Part shown: piece by piece, positions 22,502 to 30,322 of the stretch
How the letters are laid out: the number at the start of each line of letters is the position of its first letter
Numbering within the stretch: the first letter of the stretch is position 1
NCBI GenBank assembly: GCA_030837625.1
Contig: JAUPKF010000009.1
Coordinates: 1 to 39,906, forward strand
Direction: 5' to 3'
Length of the DNA: 39,906 nucleotides
Source: Patescibacteria group bacterium
GTDB taxonomy: Bacteria; Patescibacteriota; Minisyncoccia; Moranbacterales; UBA2206
Notes under the pieces: generated by a model
The model's input: the letters and a program-made list of their open reading frames with translations, nothing else
Told to the model about the DNA's origin: nothing
The model's database searches: none
Made by a program: the position numbers and the translations under genes

Positions 22502-23599
22502 TTATTTTCCAGATTTAGTGCGATTATCTTGCTTGCACAACATTTTGCAGTTTGTAGCTATCGTTTTTCCTCCTTCATGCCAAGGTGTTATATGGTCTGC
22601 TTCCATCTCTTCTATTTCAAAATGTGCATTGCCACAGACTGCATTTTTCGCCATACAAATACCTTTTTGTCTTTCGTACGCTTCTCTTTTTTGTTTATCT
22701 GTAAAAGCACGAATGTTTAATGCTTTTTCATTCCTAGTTAAAACATACTCGTAAATACCAGATTTTTTAGTCACATCTTCATCTTGCATCAATTTTGTTA
22801 TCTCTTTTTCTAATTTTTTGGAATCAAATTCTTTGTTTTTTAATTTATTGTATAAAGTTCCGAAAGATACACCTTTCATTTCTTTACGATAATTAGGAAA
22901 AACCACTTTTATCCAACTTATAACATTTTGGAAATATAGCCACAATTCATTTGCATTAGGTTTGTGCTGATGATCTGCCATGTATTGTTCAATTTTTTCA
23001 TCACTAATCCAATTAATTGCAGTTTCTAAATAATCTTGGCGAATCGGTGAACCATTTAGATAATCACTTGCTATATTGTAAGCTGGACAATTTGTTTTAC
23101 TGAAATGCTTTTTTGCATCAGTCAGCCAAGTGCCAGTGTAAATAGCATTTTTCAATTCTTGGTCGTATAGTTTTTCTCCAGCGATATTTATAGTTTTAAA
23201 CCAGTCTAATTTTTCTTTGTCGTTTCCCTCACAGAAATAAACCATCATTTTATAATCAAGAATCTGCTCTTTCTCGATATTCTCAAGATTATGAAAATAC
23301 TGAAAATTTAAAGAAAATTTACCCGAAACATATTCGCAGACGCTTATAGTTCTTTGTTGTCCGTCCATTACTTCATAAGTATCATCTGCATTTTTGACCC
23401 AATATAATACATTTAGGGGGAAATTCTTTCTTACAGTTTCAATTACGGCATCTCTTTGCTTATCTTTATAAACAAATTCGCGTTGGTATTTCGGGCGAAT
23501 GTTCAATTTTCCGCCATATCCGACAACGCCCTCTTCATTGTCATTTATATATCCATTTGAAACTTCTCTAATTGAGATTTCTTTCAGTTCAATTTTCAT
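22502..23599 (-). CDS. DUF262-HNH nuclease, probable restriction or defence effector
   Basis: 365 residues. The N-terminal DUF262 (ParB/Srx-like) domain has RPKYQREFVYKDKQRDAVIE and YEVMDGQQRTISV, where DGQQR (79-83) is the nucleotide-binding/hydrolysis signature. The C-terminal HNH module (about 315-362) reads KGICMAKNAVCG, MEADHITPWHEGGKTIATNC, KMLCKQDNRTKSG. DUF262-HNH fusions occur in modification-dependent systems such as GmrSD and SspE. Here the gene follows an EcoRI-type methyltransferase by 22 bases, so it could be the cognate nuclease of a restriction-modification pair. It is last in a four-gene operon. Confidence 0.88.
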   Translation of the reverse strand: MKIELKEISIREVSNGYINDNEEGVVGYGGKLNIRPKYQREFVYKDKQRDAVIETVRKNFPLNVLYWVKNADDTYEVMDGQQRTISVCEYVSGKFSLNFQYFHNLENIEKEQILDYKMMVYFCEGNDKEKLDWFKTINIAGEKLYDQELKNAIYTGTWLTDAKKHFSKTNCPAYNIASDYLNGSPIRQDYLETAINWISDEKIEQYMADHQHKPNANELWLYFQNVISWIKVVFPNYRKEMKGVSFGTLYNKLKNKEFDSKKLEKEITKLMQDEDVTKKSGIYEYVLTRNEKALNIRAFTDKQKREAYERQKGICMAKNAVCGNAHFEIEEMEADHITPWHEGGKTIATNCKMLCKQDNRTKSGK

Positions 23600-23621
23600 A
23601 AGTTAGTATTTATTATTAATG

Positions 23622-24623
23622 TTAAATTTTCTTATTTTTGATAACAACTCTAACATAGCATGGCTTGCCCTTAACTTGTGCTAAAAATTTACCTCTAGTT
23701 TCTTCAGTTGGTCCAGATAAAATGCTATATCGATTGAGCCCGTCCAAGATATCAAATTGGTCAGGACTATATTTATCTAAAAAAGTTATCGGAACACCTA
23801 TAGCACCCTTATAATCTATAGGAATGTCTTTTGTCTTGTCAACATTAATAGCATCATAATGGTCATATTTAGGATATTCATTTTCATGTCCAGAATAGGT
23901 TCTATAAAGAATTAAGTCTTCATGGCGTTCTTTATAATCCAAATTAGTAAACCAGCGAACACCATTAACTCTTACATATTGATTACCATCATCATCTATT
24001 CTATGACTGGCAGAATGTACATCATAATGTGCCGGAACCCTAAACTCTCTATCGCCACTATGTATGCTTTTTCCGAGCCATATTTTATTTTCTGTAATTA
24101 GTTTGAAAATTTCTTTGTAGGTAATTGCATTCTGATTTCCAATTATGATGAATTTTTTATTATACTCAATCAACTGAGTCACATATTGTCTAAACAAGGA
24201 AAAGGGTGGGTTAGTCACAACAACATCCGCTTCTTTTAAAATTTCAATGCATTCAGGACTTCTAAAATCACCATTTTGCTTTAGGGGTGTTTTAATCGTA
24301 TCTAATTTGTTTATTTTCCCGTCTTTATTTATATCTTTTACAATTTCCAATTTGTATGAAGGTTTTTCTTTCTCAAAATGAGTAGCAACCAATTTCCTTA
24401 ATTCAAGAAATTCAAAATTCAATGCAAAATAGTTCCAAAAATTGCTTTCTTCTGGGTCATCGCAATTACAAAACACCACTTTATCTTTCAGGTGATTTTT
24501 ATAATTCCCTAATTCTTTTTCAATGTCAGGTAATTGTGTGTAAAACTCATCATTCTTTGCTGCGCCTGCTTTACGCAAGTTTTTATTTGAAGATTTCTTT
24601 TCCATGTATTTTTTAATATCCAC
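23622..24623 (-). CDS. EcoRI-family adenine-specific DNA methyltransferase
   Basis: 333 residues. It matches the EcoRI methylase family: KNDEFYTQLPDIEKEL near residue 24, VVFCNCDDPEESNFWNYF (50-67) and the catalytic VVVTNPPFSLFRQY (NPPF at 138-141), then GNQNAITYKEIF and VNGVRWFTNLDY. These enzymes methylate N6 of adenine in DNA. The target site is not predictable. The start is GTG at 24623 (overlapping an AAGGTGG ribosome-site-like run) or ATG at 24605. It lies between the ImmA/IrrE gene (9 bases) and the DUF262-HNH gene (22 bases). Confidence 0.92.
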   Translation of the reverse strand: MDIKKYMEKKSSNKNLRKAGAAKNDEFYTQLPDIEKELGNYKNHLKDKVVFCNCDDPEESNFWNYFALNFEFLELRKLVATHFEKEKPSYKLEIVKDINKDGKINKLDTIKTPLKQNGDFRSPECIEILKEADVVVTNPPFSLFRQYVTQLIEYNKKFIIIGNQNAITYKEIFKLITENKIWLGKSIHSGDREFRVPAHYDVHSASHRIDDDGNQYVRVNGVRWFTNLDYKERHEDLILYRTYSGHENEYPKYDHYDAINVDKTKDIPIDYKGAIGVPITFLDKYSPDQFDILDGLNRYSILSGPTEETRGKFLAQVKGKPCYVRVVIKNKKI

Positions 24624-24632
24624 CTTAAGATT

Positions 24633-25154
24633 CTAATAGATAAATTTAGATATTCTTATCGCCATTGACTGCTGACTTACTTGATATTTCTCTGCTAATT
24701 TTTCAATCAGTCTGCTGGGGTCATCGCCATTTATTAGTTTTGAATTTTCAAAATAATCTTTCTTGAGAGAATTGACTGGCATTAGTATTTCTGCTGCAAA
24801 TTGATTTGCTTCTATCTCTTGCTTGTTAACTCCTTGGGATGAACTATCATCCCTATGAAATATAAACGCCCCTCTGTCGATAAACAATGCATTCTTTGAA
24901 TGAAGAATATAATGTCCCAATTCATGAGCAATCGTAAATCTTTGTCTCTCTGACGAATGTTTTTTGTTAACAATAATCACAGGATTACCTTCTTTACTTT
25001 TTCCCTTTAAAGCTCCGGATATGTCCTCGCTCTCAAATTCTTCGTATTTAATTTGGATACCATTTTTTTGAGCAATATCCTCTATGGGGATAGGTAATGT
25101 AATTTCTTTTAATTCCGATAACATTCTTCTAGCTATAGGTCCTGCTTTATTCAT
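24633..25154 (-). CDS. ImmA/IrrE family metallopeptidase
   Basis: 173 residues. The zinc motif RFTIAHELGHYILH has HELGH at 77-81, and the downstream EIEANQFAAEILMP supplies the third ligand. This COG2856/M78 family cleaves or inactivates XRE repressors, as ImmA does for ImmR in ICEBs1 and IrrE for DdrO in Deinococcus. The XRE gene is 8 bases upstream, so a repressor/anti-repressor pair controlling the operon is the simplest reading. Here the pair leads a methyltransferase-nuclease cassette. Confidence 0.93.
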   Translation of the reverse strand: MNKAGPIARRMLSELKEITLPIPIEDIAQKNGIQIKYEEFESEDISGALKGKSKEGNPVIIVNKKHSSERQRFTIAHELGHYILHSKNALFIDRGAFIFHRDDSSSQGVNKQEIEANQFAAEILMPVNSLKKDYFENSKLINGDDPSRLIEKLAEKYQVSQQSMAIRISKFIY

Positions 25155-25162
25155 ATATTTTT

Positions 25163-25438
25163 TTAAATATTCTTTATTTTTTCAAAATCTTTTTCTTCTT
25201 CTTTTAGTTTTATTTTTTCAAAAAAACTGTCCACAGGAACATTAAAACCTTTTCCCAGACAGTAGAGTTGATACGCTGATATCTGTTGTTTTCCATTCTC
25301 AATAGCCGAAAGTGAAGCTTTGGATAATTTTAAACCAGACTTTTTCGTTAAGTCCTCTAGCTTGAGATTGGAATTTTTCCTTAAATGCCTAATTTTTTCC
25401 CCAATTAATTCATAGAATTGGGTCTGAGATTTTTTCAT
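25163..25438 (-). CDS. XRE-family regulator, candidate controller of the restriction operon
   Basis: 91 residues from the ATG at 25438 (MKKSQTQFYEL); an upstream in-frame start 13 codons earlier would overlap the promoter. The helix-turn-helix is at about 12-66: IGEKIRHLRKNSNLKLEDLT, SKASLSAIENGKQQISAYQL, typical Cro/CI. The charged tail (KLKEEEKDFEKIKN) follows and could be the protease target. It heads the operon and sits next to two C-box-like sites. It could act as a restriction-modification controller (C) protein, as an ImmR-type repressor, or as both. Confidence 0.9.
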   Translation of the reverse strand: MKKSQTQFYELIGEKIRHLRKNSNLKLEDLTKKSGLKLSKASLSAIENGKQQISAYQLYCLGKGFNVPVDSFFEKIKLKEEEKDFEKIKNI

Positions 25439-25467
25439 AAATATTGATACTAGTATTTTATCATAAT

Positions 25468-25496
25468 ATCCTAGCATTTAATACACATGTTGTCCA
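25468..25496 (-). promoter_or_regulatory. Promoter of the XRE-ImmA-methyltransferase-nuclease operon
   Basis: Minus strand TGGACA (25496-25491), a 17-bp spacer ending in ATGC, TAGGAT (25473-25468). Confidence 0.65.
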
Positions 25497-26158: not shown

Positions 26159-26506
26159 GTTATTTTTTTAAACTTCCAAGGTTGATTATTAATCAGATTA
26201 ATCAATTTTTATCAATTGTACAAAGCATTAAAAGTGTTTTGTGATATATACTTTTGTACTCCCAAAGTTGATTATTAATCAAAGATATCAAAGATTAACT
26301 AAAAACCGAGGAAGCCAAAGTTGTTCTCAAGGTCAATTCTAGGAATTTTTCAATTCTAGGATATAAAGACATATAACCTTGCCTTTTCTAAGCCTCAAGG
26401 GTCATCCTGGGTGTCCCAGGGTATAAAAGAAAACAGACTCTTATGGAATCTGCTAAACTTATCCCAACTTGATTGTTTTTCAAGTTTATCAAGATAAAAA
26501 CTAATT
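26159..26506. other. Gene-free stretch with repeated TTGATTATTAATCA
   Basis: No gene seen. The 14-base word TTGATTATTAATCA occurs at 26182-26195 and again at 26268-26281 in the same direction, each preceded by CCAA. An inverted repeat CCTGGG-TGT-CCCAGG lies at about 26408-26422. These may be protein-binding sites, an origin or an attachment region. Confidence 0.5.
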
Positions 26507-26848
26507 TCACTCAATATACGCTGGAATTATCCTAAAACTGGGCTCGGCTTCATATTTATATTCTCCAAGACTTGGATTGCAAAGTCTTTCAAGTTCTTCC
26601 CCTTTATAAAAAAGCTTACTTTCAATTAGCTGAAAATTTAAACCCCTACCTATCAAATCTTTTCCTAGATATTGCTCTTTGTTTTTACACTCAACAATAG
26701 TTTTCTCAATATCCATTATTTTCTTATTTTCCTTGCCTTGAGAAGCACCGCTATTTTCATTCTCTGCATTTCCCCTCCAGTATAGGAAGCCAAACAATAC
26801 CGAAAAGACTAAGAGGATTAAAGTTATAAAAAGTGAATATTTTTTCAT
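26507..26848 (-). CDS. Small membrane-anchored protein, 113 residues
   Basis: Not recognised. An N-terminal membrane anchor/signal segment (YSLFITLILLVFSVLFGFLY, about 4-23) is followed by a polar linker and a soluble part of about 75 residues with two Cys (VECKNKE, RLCNPS). It lacks a lipobox, so it is probably anchored by the helix and faces outward. Its ATG overlaps the stop of the receiver-like gene by 4 bases, so translation is coupled. It is the last gene of the three-gene operon. Confidence 0.7.
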   Translation of the reverse strand: MKKYSLFITLILLVFSVLFGFLYWRGNAENENSGASQGKENKKIMDIEKTIVECKNKEQYLGKDLIGRGLNFQLIESKLFYKGEELERLCNPSLGEYKYEAEPSFRIIPAYIE

Positions 26849-27222
26849 AGTAATGATTTTATTTTATTAACAAAATTTTCTGGGCTAATATCTGAATGTT
26901 GAAAGTAATCTTCCATACCTGCGCTAATTGCTTTTCTCTTGCTTTCCTCATCAGAAAGATTATCAAATCCAACAACTTTAATTTCTTTTGTTCTTTCGTC
27001 TTTTTTTAACATCTCTGTCATCTGATAGCCATCAACATTTGGTAAAATAATACCTACCACAATAATACTTGGCTGAAAATTAACCACATCGTCAATGAAC
27101 TTACTATCGGGTGTGTTGATAATTTTCACTTCGAATCCTTGAGACGAAAACTTATTTTTATAAATATCAGTCAAAAATTTATCATCCTCTACTATTAAAA
27201 TTTTAGGCTTAACCTCATTCAT
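26845..27222 (-). CDS. Degenerate (pseudo) receiver domain protein
   Basis: 125 residues with the fold of a response-regulator receiver: ILIVEDDKFLTDIY (E12, D13, D14 acidic pocket), PSIIVVGIILPNVDGY, then KVVGFDNLSDEE and AGMEDYFQHSDISPENF. The phosphoacceptor Asp is Gly57, the switch Thr is Asp87 and the conserved Lys is His109, so it cannot be phosphorylated in the usual way. There is no output domain and no histidine kinase nearby. It overlaps both neighbours by 4 bases, so it is made with them. It may be a constitutive protein-interaction domain. Confidence 0.9.
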   Translation of the reverse strand: MNEVKPKILIVEDDKFLTDIYKNKFSSQGFEVKIINTPDSKFIDDVVNFQPSIIVVGIILPNVDGYQMTEMLKKDERTKEIKVVGFDNLSDEESKRKAISAGMEDYFQHSDISPENFVNKIKSLL

Positions 27223-27638
27223 TTTTTTGGTTGAAAATAATTCAATTGATTAAAGCAACTCTCTGCTTCGCTTATTATATGATAAATGCTTGAAGGTGCT
27301 GTTGAAGTTCCGTTCATGCTATAAAGAAATTTGATTGCTTTTAAATATGCATAAAAGTTTTTTCTTATCATAAACTGTCTTTTGTAATCATTTTTGAATT
27401 GGTCGATTAAAAGTATATATTTTCGCTCCATTTCCAGTCTCCTTGAAATAACTTCCATGTATTCCTCTGTCCTTTTTGTTCCCTCTGAATGAACGAGCGT
27501 GGAAATCATATCTTTGCTTATTATTTTTTTGCAAGTTTCTCCTTGCTCTTTTAAATCTTGATTTAAAAGATTTTTCACGATAGGTCTCAACTCATCAATC
27601 CTTTTATCAAGAAAGTAATTTAATATTTTATAAATCAT
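27219..27638 (-). CDS. Uncharacterised helical protein, 139 residues
   Basis: Not recognised. It is mostly helical and charged, with a long central helix (RTEEYMEVISRRLEMERKYI) and no membrane segment. The ATG at 27638 (MIYKILNYF) is preferred over an upstream TTG at 27650, since the terminator's T run is right before it. It opens the operon whose second gene is the pseudo-receiver (4-base overlap); the two products may interact. A structured leader with a terminator hairpin lies immediately upstream. Confidence 0.65.
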   Translation of the reverse strand: MIYKILNYFLDKRIDELRPIVKNLLNQDLKEQGETCKKIISKDMISTLVHSEGTKRTEEYMEVISRRLEMERKYILLIDQFKNDYKRQFMIRKNFYAYLKAIKFLYSMNGTSTAPSSIYHIISEAESCFNQLNYFQPKK

Positions 27639-27644
27639 ATTCCA

Positions 27645-27823
27645 AAACAAAAACGACTTAATTATTAAGTCGTCGAGAAGTTCTCAATGTTAACATGTTC
27701 ACTTGAGTGGACGACCCGACGGGTACAACACTCAAAAGACACCGAAATGTCCTATCATGTTCATCGAGCCGCCCGCTAAAGGGCGTGATAGGACAAATAA
27801 CCGAGATCATCTCAGTATCTGTA
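27645..27823 (-). ncRNA. Candidate structured leader RNA or small RNA ending in an intrinsic terminator
   Basis: The predicted transcript starts near 27823 and runs to the hairpin ACGACTTAAT-T-ATTAAGTCGT (27654-27674), followed by TTTTTGTTTT. Elements in order: ACTGAGA-TGA-TCTCGGT; a 10-bp stem TGTCCTATCA/TGATAGGACA enclosing CGCCC-TTTAGC-GGGCG; and GAGTG...CACTC enclosing a CCCG/CGGG stem. GTCGTC (27715-27710) could pair with GACGAC (27674-27669) at the terminator base and prevent it forming. The next gene starts 7 bases after the T run, so it is either a leader attenuator or an independent RNA. No known family is recognised. Confidence 0.55.
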
Positions 27824-27828
27824 TGAGT

Positions 27829-27837
27829 ATTGTACCA
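27829..27837 (-). promoter_or_regulatory. Extended -10 promoter for the leader RNA
   Basis: Minus strand TGG followed by TACAAT (27834-27829). A weak TTGTAT lies further upstream. Confidence 0.5.
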
Positions 27838-27928
27838 TTTATAAAGTAATACAATTTAGAGAAAAAGTAAACTGTTCTTGATTTATAAGGCTTTTTGACC
27901 TAAGCTAAGAATTATTAGGTTTAGACTT

Positions 27929-28705
27929 ATGAAATATCCAAGAATTGATGAGGAAAGGTGGGCAACTATCATTTTACTTGAAAAAATCAGGTCTATTTTT
28001 GAATTTCCTGATAAAACTGTCCACTACGAAAAAAATACAAAGAAAATGTACTCTCATTTAAGCGAATTTATCACAATTAATGGAACTACTTATAAGATAG
28101 AGCATAGCCTTTTTAAGAAACTTTTATCAGATTTTGACTTAGAAGGATTGATAAAAAAAGGAAACTACTTACCAATTGCAATAAACGAAGCAATCAAAGA
28201 CCCGCTTGTTTTTGGGTCTGAAGAAATAGAACGAAACCGATTTTTTTCATATGACAAACTGGACGAGGATAGTATTTTCGAATATGAAATAGTATTAAAA
28301 AATCTGGAAAAAATTAAAGAGAAGATATCCTTTTTAAATTCACTAAATATTTCTTTGCACACGCTTCCTTTTGGAGCTGACACTGCCAAAATAAACCTAT
28401 CAATCAACGCGTCTCATGGTATAAAAATTACAAAAGAAGGCGTTGAATATTTTTATCCGATAAAGGGCAACCGATTTAAAATTATTGAATTTCTGAAAGA
28501 CGGAAAAAAACCAGGTGAATTTTTAGCAAAGATGCAAGGGCGACCGCTAAGTTTAATAATAAAAGAAATTTCAGCCATCAATGAATTATTCAAAAAATTA
28601 TTCAAAAAAATTTATATTAAAGACAATCTCATAGTACACGTTAAGACTGGCGGTTATGAGCTTAATCGCCAAAAATTCGATATAACATTTACGGACAACC
28701 TTTAG
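27929..28705 (+). CDS. Uncharacterised 258-residue island protein
   Basis: Not recognised. The first third (MKYPRIDEERWATIILLEKI) is mixed helical, the middle has KKISFL-type helical repeats, and the last 85 residues (KGNRFKIIEFLKDGKKPGEF, then NELFKKLFKKIYIKDNLIVH, GGYELN) look like a winged helix-turn-helix: helix, helix, helix, then beta wing. A DNA-binding regulator or replication role is possible, but no motif fixes it. There is no signal or membrane segment. It has its own terminator and lies before the ATPase gene. Confidence 0.7.
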   Translation: MKYPRIDEERWATIILLEKIRSIFEFPDKTVHYEKNTKKMYSHLSEFITINGTTYKIEHSLFKKLLSDFDLEGLIKKGNYLPIAINEAIKDPLVFGSEEIERNRFFSYDKLDEDSIFEYEIVLKNLEKIKEKISFLNSLNISLHTLPFGADTAKINLSINASHGIKITKEGVEYFYPIKGNRFKIIEFLKDGKKPGEFLAKMQGRPLSLIIKEISAINELFKKLFKKIYIKDNLIVHVKTGGYELNRQKFDITFTDNL

Positions 28706-28907: not shown

Positions 28908-30278
28908 ATGAACAAGGACAACGAAGAAGAATCTAAAAAAGATACCTCCAAAGAAATTTCATCTGCAATCTTGGGAGATGGAACACTGATTGAAATGCTT
29001 TATAACAAACAAACCAACACCACCAGCCTTGCCGTCTATAAAAACGGTGAGATTGAAATCAAAAAGAAACTTATATCAGAGGGCATATGCCTAAAGCCAC
29101 ATTCACCCAACAAGGATTTAATCAAAGCCAGAGTGATATCCTTTCCGTCAGAGCCAAGGGAATATGAATCTCAAAAGGAATTAGTTGCTGATATACAGAA
29201 ATTTATTCATAAATATCTTGCCGTATCACCCTTTTTTGAAAAGATAGCCAGCTACTACGCTCTTTTTACTTGGATTCACGATGATTTCAATGAACTCCCC
29301 TATCTGCGAGGACTTGGAGATTACGGAACGGGTAAATCAAGACTACTACAAGTAGTTGGCTCGGTTTGCTATAAGCCTATCTTTGCTAGTGGAGCAACTA
29401 CTGTTTCCCCTATCTTCCGTTTGCTCAACGACTTCAAAGGTACGCTCATCATGGATGAAGCGGATTTTATATTTTCCGATACTACCGCAGAAATAGTAAA
29501 AATCCTCAACAGCGGATTCATGAAAGGAATGCCTGTTTTGAGAAGCGAAAGCAACAATAAAAAAAGTTTTGATGTGAAAGCATACAGCGTTTTTGGTCCC
29601 AAGATTATAGCTACAAGACAGCTTTACAAGGATACTGCCCTAGAAAGTCGGATGATAACCGAAGATATGAATTTAAACTTTCCAAGAGAAGATGTTCCCT
29701 ACAACATCCCCGACATTTTTTGGGATGAAGCATTGGATATCAGAAACAAGCTGCTAATGTTTCGCTTCAAAAACAAGGGCAAAAGCAAACTTAGGCCAGA
29801 ATTAGAAAATCGTGAAATCGAGCCGAGACTCAATCAAATCGCAATTCCTTTAATGAGTATCATTGATGACCCCGAATTAATCTCAGAAATTCAAAACCAA
29901 ATTAAAGAATACAACGAAAAAATCAAAACTGACAGAACACTCGGATATAGTTATCAGATTTTGGATGCTATCTGTTCACTTCTAGACGAGGGATTTATCA
30001 AGCCTACTGTTCAACAAGTTGCGGCAAGATTTAACAAAGATTTAAGTCTTTCAGAACAAACAACCCCGAAGAAAATGGGTTATCTGATTAGAAAAACGTT
30101 GGACATAAAAACGGAGCGAACACGAGAGGGCTATGTTATTTCTCAAGACAATGAGAAAAAAATTGAAATCCTACGAAAAAGATACAATATCCAGAAAGAC
30201 AGTGAGGATGTGAACAATGTTAACAATGTTAACTTACTAGGCGAAGGATATGAAAATATACCCATAATACACGAGTAA
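28908..30278 (+). CDS. P-loop ATPase of the island, possible replication/helicase-like protein
   Basis: 456 residues. Walker A is GDYGTGKS (137-144) and Walker B TLIMDEAD (179-186), followed by KSFDVKAYSVFGPKIIATRQ and DTALESRMI, with an R-containing end that may be an arginine finger. The domain order resembles primase-polymerase-associated or DUF927/DUF3631-like ATPases of plasmids and phages. A C-terminal region (about 345-425) looks like a winged helix (KPTVQQVAARFNKDLSLSEQ, MGYLIRKTLDIKTERTREG). It ends in VNNVNNVN, encoded by GTTAAC repeats. It probably works in replication or excision of the element. No membrane segments. It could be a viral-type helicase; motif C is not obvious. Confidence 0.75.
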   Translation: MNKDNEEESKKDTSKEISSAILGDGTLIEMLYNKQTNTTSLAVYKNGEIEIKKKLISEGICLKPHSPNKDLIKARVISFPSEPREYESQKELVADIQKFIHKYLAVSPFFEKIASYYALFTWIHDDFNELPYLRGLGDYGTGKSRLLQVVGSVCYKPIFASGATTVSPIFRLLNDFKGTLIMDEADFIFSDTTAEIVKILNSGFMKGMPVLRSESNNKKSFDVKAYSVFGPKIIATRQLYKDTALESRMITEDMNLNFPREDVPYNIPDIFWDEALDIRNKLLMFRFKNKGKSKLRPELENREIEPRLNQIAIPLMSIIDDPELISEIQNQIKEYNEKIKTDRTLGYSYQILDAICSLLDEGFIKPTVQQVAARFNKDLSLSEQTTPKKMGYLIRKTLDIKTERTREGYVISQDNEKKIEILRKRYNIQKDSEDVNNVNNVNLLGEGYENIPIIHE

Positions 30279-30322
30279 ATGATACTTATATAAATTAAAG
30301 TTAACAATGTTAACAAGTTAAC
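30210..30322. repeat. Clustered GTTAAC iterons at the end of the ATPase gene
   Basis: GTGAAC, GTTAAC and GTTAAC begin at 30210, 30219 and 30228 (9-bp spacing). A second set begins at 30300, 30309 and 30317. A related pair (27689 and 27697, GTTAAC and GTTCAC) lies in the leader RNA region. Possible binding sites of an element-encoded protein or a replication origin. Confidence 0.6.

Follow-up and report, generated by a model that had tools for sequence, protein, structure and literature searches.

The window, that is, the whole stretch of 39,906 nucleotides of Patescibacteria DNA that was analysed, contains an island in which a structured RNA on the minus strand precedes a three-gene operon, while backbone genes and a recombinase lie on the plus strand. 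The genes and sites around the RNA are the following:

27219-27639, minus strand: first gene behind the RNA, 139 aa from the ATG at 27639 (143 aa from the TTG at 27650); no Pfam match
26845-27222, minus strand: pseudo-receiver protein, in which Gly occupies the place expected for the phospho-Asp (PSIIVVGIILPNVDG); Pfam Response_reg, 3e-12
26507-26848, minus strand: third operon gene, 113 aa, with an N-terminal hydrophobic segment seen in its sequence
26432-26454, minus strand: terminator-like site past the three-gene operon
27929-28705, plus strand: divergent backbone gene, 258 aa; no Pfam match
28908-30278, plus strand: backbone protein of the island, 456 aa; three other islands with the RNA have it at 71-75% identity
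30560-32167, plus strand: island serine recombinase, ending at tRNA-Gly; Pfam Resolvase, Recombinase and Zn_ribbon_recom, with the tRNA

The pseudo-receiver (26845-27222) has no output domain attached to it. Among 16 contexts, the 258-aa divergent protein has a significant blastp match only to a protein of locus L059, and its structure prediction (pLDDT 35) is uninformative. No integration repeats of the tRNA-Gly end of at least 14 nt were found within the window. At 22502-25477, genes for an HTH protein and an M78 peptidase (capH/capP-like according to PADLOC), an EcoRI-type type II methyltransferase and a GmrSD/HNH nuclease stand in a row; judging from these assignments, this is a restriction or defence module in the island cargo. 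Two GTTAACAATGTTAAC-type repeats (30210-30235 and 30299-30320) adjoin a 61-aa ORF before the recombinase and have CAATGTTAACA in common with the P5 loop of the RNA (27685-27695). This motif has five matches with at most one mismatch against 0.87 expected, and is possibly the operator of an island regulator.

The RNA is about 185 nt long, and together with its promoter it comprises the following elements, given in the direction of transcription:

27866-27871, minus strand: -35 element TTTACT; a TT-type hexamer lies 17 nt from the -10 in 13 of the 14 full-length homologues
27843-27848, minus strand: -10 element TACTTT; TAnnnT at a fixed distance from P1 in 14/14 full-length homologues
27645-27838, minus strand: the structured RNA as a whole, P1 through terminator T tract, recognised by its fold, a covariance-model family and covariation
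27824-27836, minus strand: P1, 5' strand, GGTACAATACTCA; both sides changed in 10 of 14 P1 pairs, 97% of cells paired
27811-27820, minus strand: P2, 5' strand; both sides changed in 9 of 10 P2 pairs
27748-27795, minus strand: P3 (27795-27786 with 27757-27748) and apical P4 (GCCC/GGGC); both sides changed in 7 of 11 P3 pairs
27738-27751, minus strand: local hairpin H3', GACAT-TTCG-GTGTC, which excludes P2 and vice versa
27737-27746, minus strand: P2, 3' strand, from covariation
27722-27734, minus strand: P1, 3' strand, TGAGTGTTGTACC, from inverted-repeat analysis and covariation
27672-27720, minus strand: P5 hairpin domain (GTCGGG at 27720-27715 with CTCGAC at 27677-27672); 98% of cells paired
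27710-27717, minus strand: candidate anti-terminator strand GGGTCGTC, pairing with GACGACTT at 27674-27667
27652-27674, minus strand: intrinsic terminator, a 10-bp stem and T tract, kept in all copies

The minus-strand fold of positions 27640-27840 has a predicted energy of -72.0 kcal/mol, compared with a mean of -47.4 for 200 dinucleotide shuffles, none of which reaches this value (z -6.25). This bears out the original prediction that a structured RNA lies here, the coordinates of which were within a base or two, and the stems that it described are present as well: the 10-bp stem closing a GC-rich hairpin (27748-27757/27786-27795, around GCCC/GGGC) and the perfect 10-bp stem of the terminator (27653-27662/27664-27673). 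The P1 closing stem (27722-27734/27824-27836; 12 of 13 bp) had not been singled out. The plus strand folds well too, as a complement should, and was rejected as the functional strand; the promoter, the T tract and the G-U pairs favour the minus strand, the last because such pairs, e.g. the U-G cells in P1, become A-C on the complement.

A BLAST search within the family of the window's genome gave two full-length relatives and one 3' half. A covariance model built from three sequences (R1) then found 16 strong copies, 14 of them full length, in 14 of the 131 genomes of the order (E values from 1e-50 to 1e-11), so that the check first suggested, a search for homologous RNA in other Patescibacteria islands, does give copies. 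A second model, built from 14 sequences (R2), returned the same 16 copies and five weak matches. One of the latter, in G100, shows a T-rich -35 box, the RNA, a terminator and the ATG of a small membrane protein in the same order, and may be a divergent copy. Among 384 genomes of the class and 380 of the phylum, samples that overlap the order, every match outside the order was weaker than E 1e-3 and was taken as chance. Seven records came from a pattern scan of GTDB contigs; the model confirmed six of them, two of which are named Candidatus Moraniibacteriota. A Prosthecobacter pattern match was not confirmed by the covariance model. Blastn searches of phage and plasmid collections gave no copy, and in viral contigs three further patterns and one strict pattern gave 11 exact matches to the loosest of them, none confirmed by the model.

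At the gathering cut-off, Rfam 15 recognises only four tRNAs in the window and nothing in eight homologous loci, and the RNA matches none of its families; permissive Rfam matches near the RNA are far below the cut-off and lie outside it. There is no Rfam match to a T-box, no short ORF that could be a leader peptide is shared by the aligned copies as judged by eye, and a search of the literature gave no earlier description of the RNA.

The compensatory changes, whose absence from homologues had been named beforehand as evidence against such an RNA, are present in abundance. Over the 14 full-length sequences, 94.3% of the cells pair and 32 of the 53 pairs change on both sides (109 cells), figures that are favoured by the fitting of the 14-sequence alignment to the model structure. 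In the unfitted alignment of the first three sequences, all 13 P1 positions are already paired through changes. The covariation score of the 14 sequences is 0.513, against 0.239 for shuffled alignments (0 of 500 shuffles as high), and in a control in which the partner was slid by 1-3 columns, pairing falls to 34-46%. Covariation thus supports P1, P2, P3, P5 and the terminator as conserved structure, P5 with two pairs changed on both sides and a conserved loop box, GTCCWCTCAAG. The P3/P4 region contains a conserved asymmetric loop, GGGCGRYTCGRYGCAC. The pairing of P4 is broken in at least two homologues, and neither P4 nor the small helices inside the P5 loop are present in every copy. We consider it virtually certain that the RNA represents a real conserved family.

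The layout around the RNA is common to all full-length copies: the -10 element at a fixed place, the RNA and a weak terminator, the hairpin of which is predicted at about -6 to -8 kcal/mol in most copies. The -35 hexamers of homologues are TTGTAT, TTTACT, TTGCAT and similar, the promoter hexamers having been read by eye in a frame shifted by a few bases, and the predicted transcription start lies on or close to the first P1 base (~27836). In 14 of the 16 copies the T tract is followed, after 0-10 nt, by the ATG of an ORF that is at least 63 aa long. As background, 3.1% of random positions in these loci have the start of an ORF of 60 aa or more at so short a distance, which for 13 of the 16 copies gives P ~1e-17 if the copies are treated as independent. 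In the window, the ATG of the operon (27639-27637) lies about 5 nt past the last T of the T-rich tract; the terminator shortly before the first ATG was predicted correctly. An in-frame TTG (27650) inside the T tract would give a longer ORF, 27219-27650.

In a comparison covering the window and 16 context loci, 4-mers resembling Shine-Dalgarno sequences are less frequent just ahead of ORFs than in a control stretch that lies farther upstream (3/42 against 6/42, and 4/95 against 11/95), and these counts give no sign that the lineage uses Shine-Dalgarno sites. An ATG can therefore abut the terminator, no ribosome site being needed. Taken as a whole, this arrangement leaves hardly any way for the promoter to serve the cargo other than transcription past the terminator.

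The same elements, a promoter at the first base of P1 and a terminator at the end, also make up a complete small-RNA gene, and a trans-acting RNA of the island that works elsewhere by base pairing or protein binding, the cargo being expressed only by leak, is a rival explanation. The weak terminator hairpin would suit it, and the conserved unpaired boxes GTCCWCTCAAG and GGGCGRYTCGRYGCAC could be recognition sites. IsrK of a Salmonella prophage, where a single promoter yields both a short RNA and an mRNA made by read-through, provides a precedent (PMC4825925). However, a trans-acting RNA leaves unexplained why the ATG lies within 0-10 nt in 14 of 16 copies, and a search of the RNA's own genome with one 14-nt loop box found its complement (at most one mismatch) nowhere else, and hence no obvious target. 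We regard this explanation as unlikely.

The genes on either side of the RNA suggest that it travels with mobile islands. Its neighbourhoods contain serine recombinases at seven loci and a tyrosine recombinase at one. CHC2 zinc-finger and AAA_25 proteins are encoded on the divergent side, and the genes that follow the RNA vary. Four RNA-bearing genomes, from three families, share the backbone protein at 71-75% identity. Of the 131 genomes, 6 have this protein, 4 of them together with the RNA (Fisher p 0.001); two genomes lack the RNA and have the protein at 42-43% identity. Compared with the window copy, one copy of family f5 is 84% identical and the other two full-length copies of family f1 are 63-71% identical. 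RNA similarity thus cuts across families, which means that the islands move.

In the four islands that share the backbone protein, the first genes behind the RNA are unrelated, and the first genes are in general mostly non-homologous and without a recognisable common function. In an exploratory count with criteria that were not identical for the two groups, a hydrophobic membrane or signal segment was present in 11 of 15 first ORFs and in 21 of 105 other island ORFs. One copy (G002) adjoins clpP; the gene behind the clpP-adjoining copy (L022, 5128-5673) resembles by eye a membrane glycosyltransferase with its middle missing, in frame, and has no Pfam match. Some copies, among which the G002 copy is listed, are remnants. 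That of G005 consists of the 3' half only, behind a GIY-YIG gene, and that of G114 lacks the 5' part and adjoins the 3' end of a tRNA. At locus L024 (5001-5379), a GIY-YIG gene leads directly into the RNA 3' half, in place of the P1-P3 arm.

A conserved backbone on one side and unrelated cargo on the other could also mean that the RNA gene marks a recombination boundary, the conserved stretch serving as a homology block for cargo exchange and the terminator blocking transcription from the host or the backbone, in the way that a Tn916 terminator acts as an insulator (PMC11658703). Neither homology nor insulation, however, requires compensatory changes in P1-P3 or a conserved promoter, and some pairs of copies have drifted to 53-60% identity, which makes a poor homology block. 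This explanation is, in our view, highly improbable.

Alternative pairings within the RNA bear on how its terminator might be controlled. The H3' hairpin is a local fold of the right-hand P2 half and frequently has TTCG as its loop; its inner cells are paired in 70 of 70 cases over 14 sequences, against a mean of 54.9 and a maximum of 64 for shuffled sequences, in a test that leans upward because each hairpin was picked by folding. The left half of P2 forms a local hairpin too in several copies (in the window, the P2 5' strand with 27800-27806, H5'), and P2 and the local hairpins are mutually exclusive. P2 and H3' have no obvious mechanical link to the terminator. The P5 loop box could also pair with the 3' strand of P1 (88.5% paired), but this alternative is only weakly above shuffles and was rejected.

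The internal GTCGTC segment that had been proposed to compete with the base of the terminator does pair with GACGAC: the GGGTCGTC/GACGACTT pairing holds in 94.5% of cells over 8 bp in the 14 homologues, against 20-47% in slid controls. Its conservation is one of sequence identity alone, with no compensatory change, and its probability in the thermodynamic ensemble is near zero in all 14 homologues, so that we do not retain it as a proven anti-terminator. In contrast to P1-P3, the GAC/GTC base of the terminator is invariant, a pattern compatible with a second pairing partner. Almost all predicted ensembles contain the terminator; given also the near-zero anti-terminator without compensatory changes, a classical two-state attenuator is not demonstrated. 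Of the two roles first suggested, an attenuating leader or a small RNA, it is that of a leader which the fixed order of promoter, RNA, terminator and ATG before unrelated genes supports; attenuation itself is a candidate mechanism.

The position at the start of a mobile-element operon, the complex fold and the terminator directly behind it could likewise indicate a cis-acting processive antiterminator of the put or canT type, in which the folded RNA binds the polymerase and enables it to pass the adjoining terminator and later ones in the cargo. More terminator-like sites do lie downstream, e.g. at 26432-26454, and there are precedents in phage HK022 (PMC9378689) and Tn916 (PMC11658703). The RNA has no Rfam match, however, and its terminator belongs to the conserved RNA itself instead of standing apart further on. 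We therefore judge an antiterminator of this type to be quite unlikely.

Own promoter, structured RNA and a terminator directly before the coding region together give the layout of a leader, and as the best explanation of the observations we favour, with moderate confidence, a mobile leader that acts in cis and gates read-through into the exchangeable cargo of the islands. An action in cis on the cargo operon is likely; that this action works via regulated read-through of the terminator is somewhat less so, although still probable. Transcription would start at the conserved sigma70-type promoter at the foot of P1, and the RNA, as covariation shows, folds into a long arm made up of P1, P2 and P3, then the P5 hairpin, and last a weak terminator right before the ATG of the cargo. 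Because no ribosome-binding site is used in the lineage and only 0-10 nt separate terminator and ATG, the cargo would need read-through and be expressed from this promoter in no other way. Whether the polymerase stops, producing a short RNA, or reads through would probably be set by the state of the RNA, for which P2 against the conserved local hairpin, and P5 plus terminator against the GGGTCGTC/GACGACTT pairing, are candidate switches; the trigger could be a metabolite, a protein of the island or of the host, or a further RNA. The island would thus carry one constant regulated start to which different cargo genes are joined.

A stronger version is doubtful: a ligand- or protein-responsive switch, with P2 set against the local hairpins and P5 plus terminator against the anti-terminator, that Patescibacteria islands carry along as a gate for cargo of any kind. 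If true, any ORF joined directly behind the terminator would be controlled without a ribosome-binding site. On the favoured view, too, the RNA would be a mobile regulatory RNA of the Patescibacteria, a group whose gene control is little known. It gives a way into the question of how these islands turn on cargo as varied as membrane proteins and restriction- or defence-like genes, and how an RNA leader can serve unrelated genes in a lineage without Shine-Dalgarno sites.

Terminating riboswitches and attenuators have a structured 5' leader, possibly with alternative pairings, followed by an intrinsic terminator before the coding region. The RNA described here differs in that the ATG directly follows the T tract and the downstream genes have no obvious shared function. 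IsrK of the Gifsy-1 prophage, from which a short RNA and a read-through mRNA are made from one promoter (PMC4825925), is likewise island-borne, with its own promoter and a leaky terminator; however, IsrK is tied to orf45/anrP/antQ, whereas the downstream genes of the new RNA differ by island and its structure is kept by extensive covariation. With canT of Tn916, an active stretch of 341-452 nt that governs conjugation genes (PMC11658703), it has in common that an RNA of an integrative element, probably acting in cis, governs whether the genes of the element are reached by read-through; by description, the new RNA is set apart by its length of ~185 nt, its own included terminator and its place before exchangeable cargo. 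HK022 putRNA (PMC9378689) is similar as a nascent RNA at the start of a mobile-element operon with terminators downstream, and, again compared by description, the new RNA differs in having a terminator built into it.
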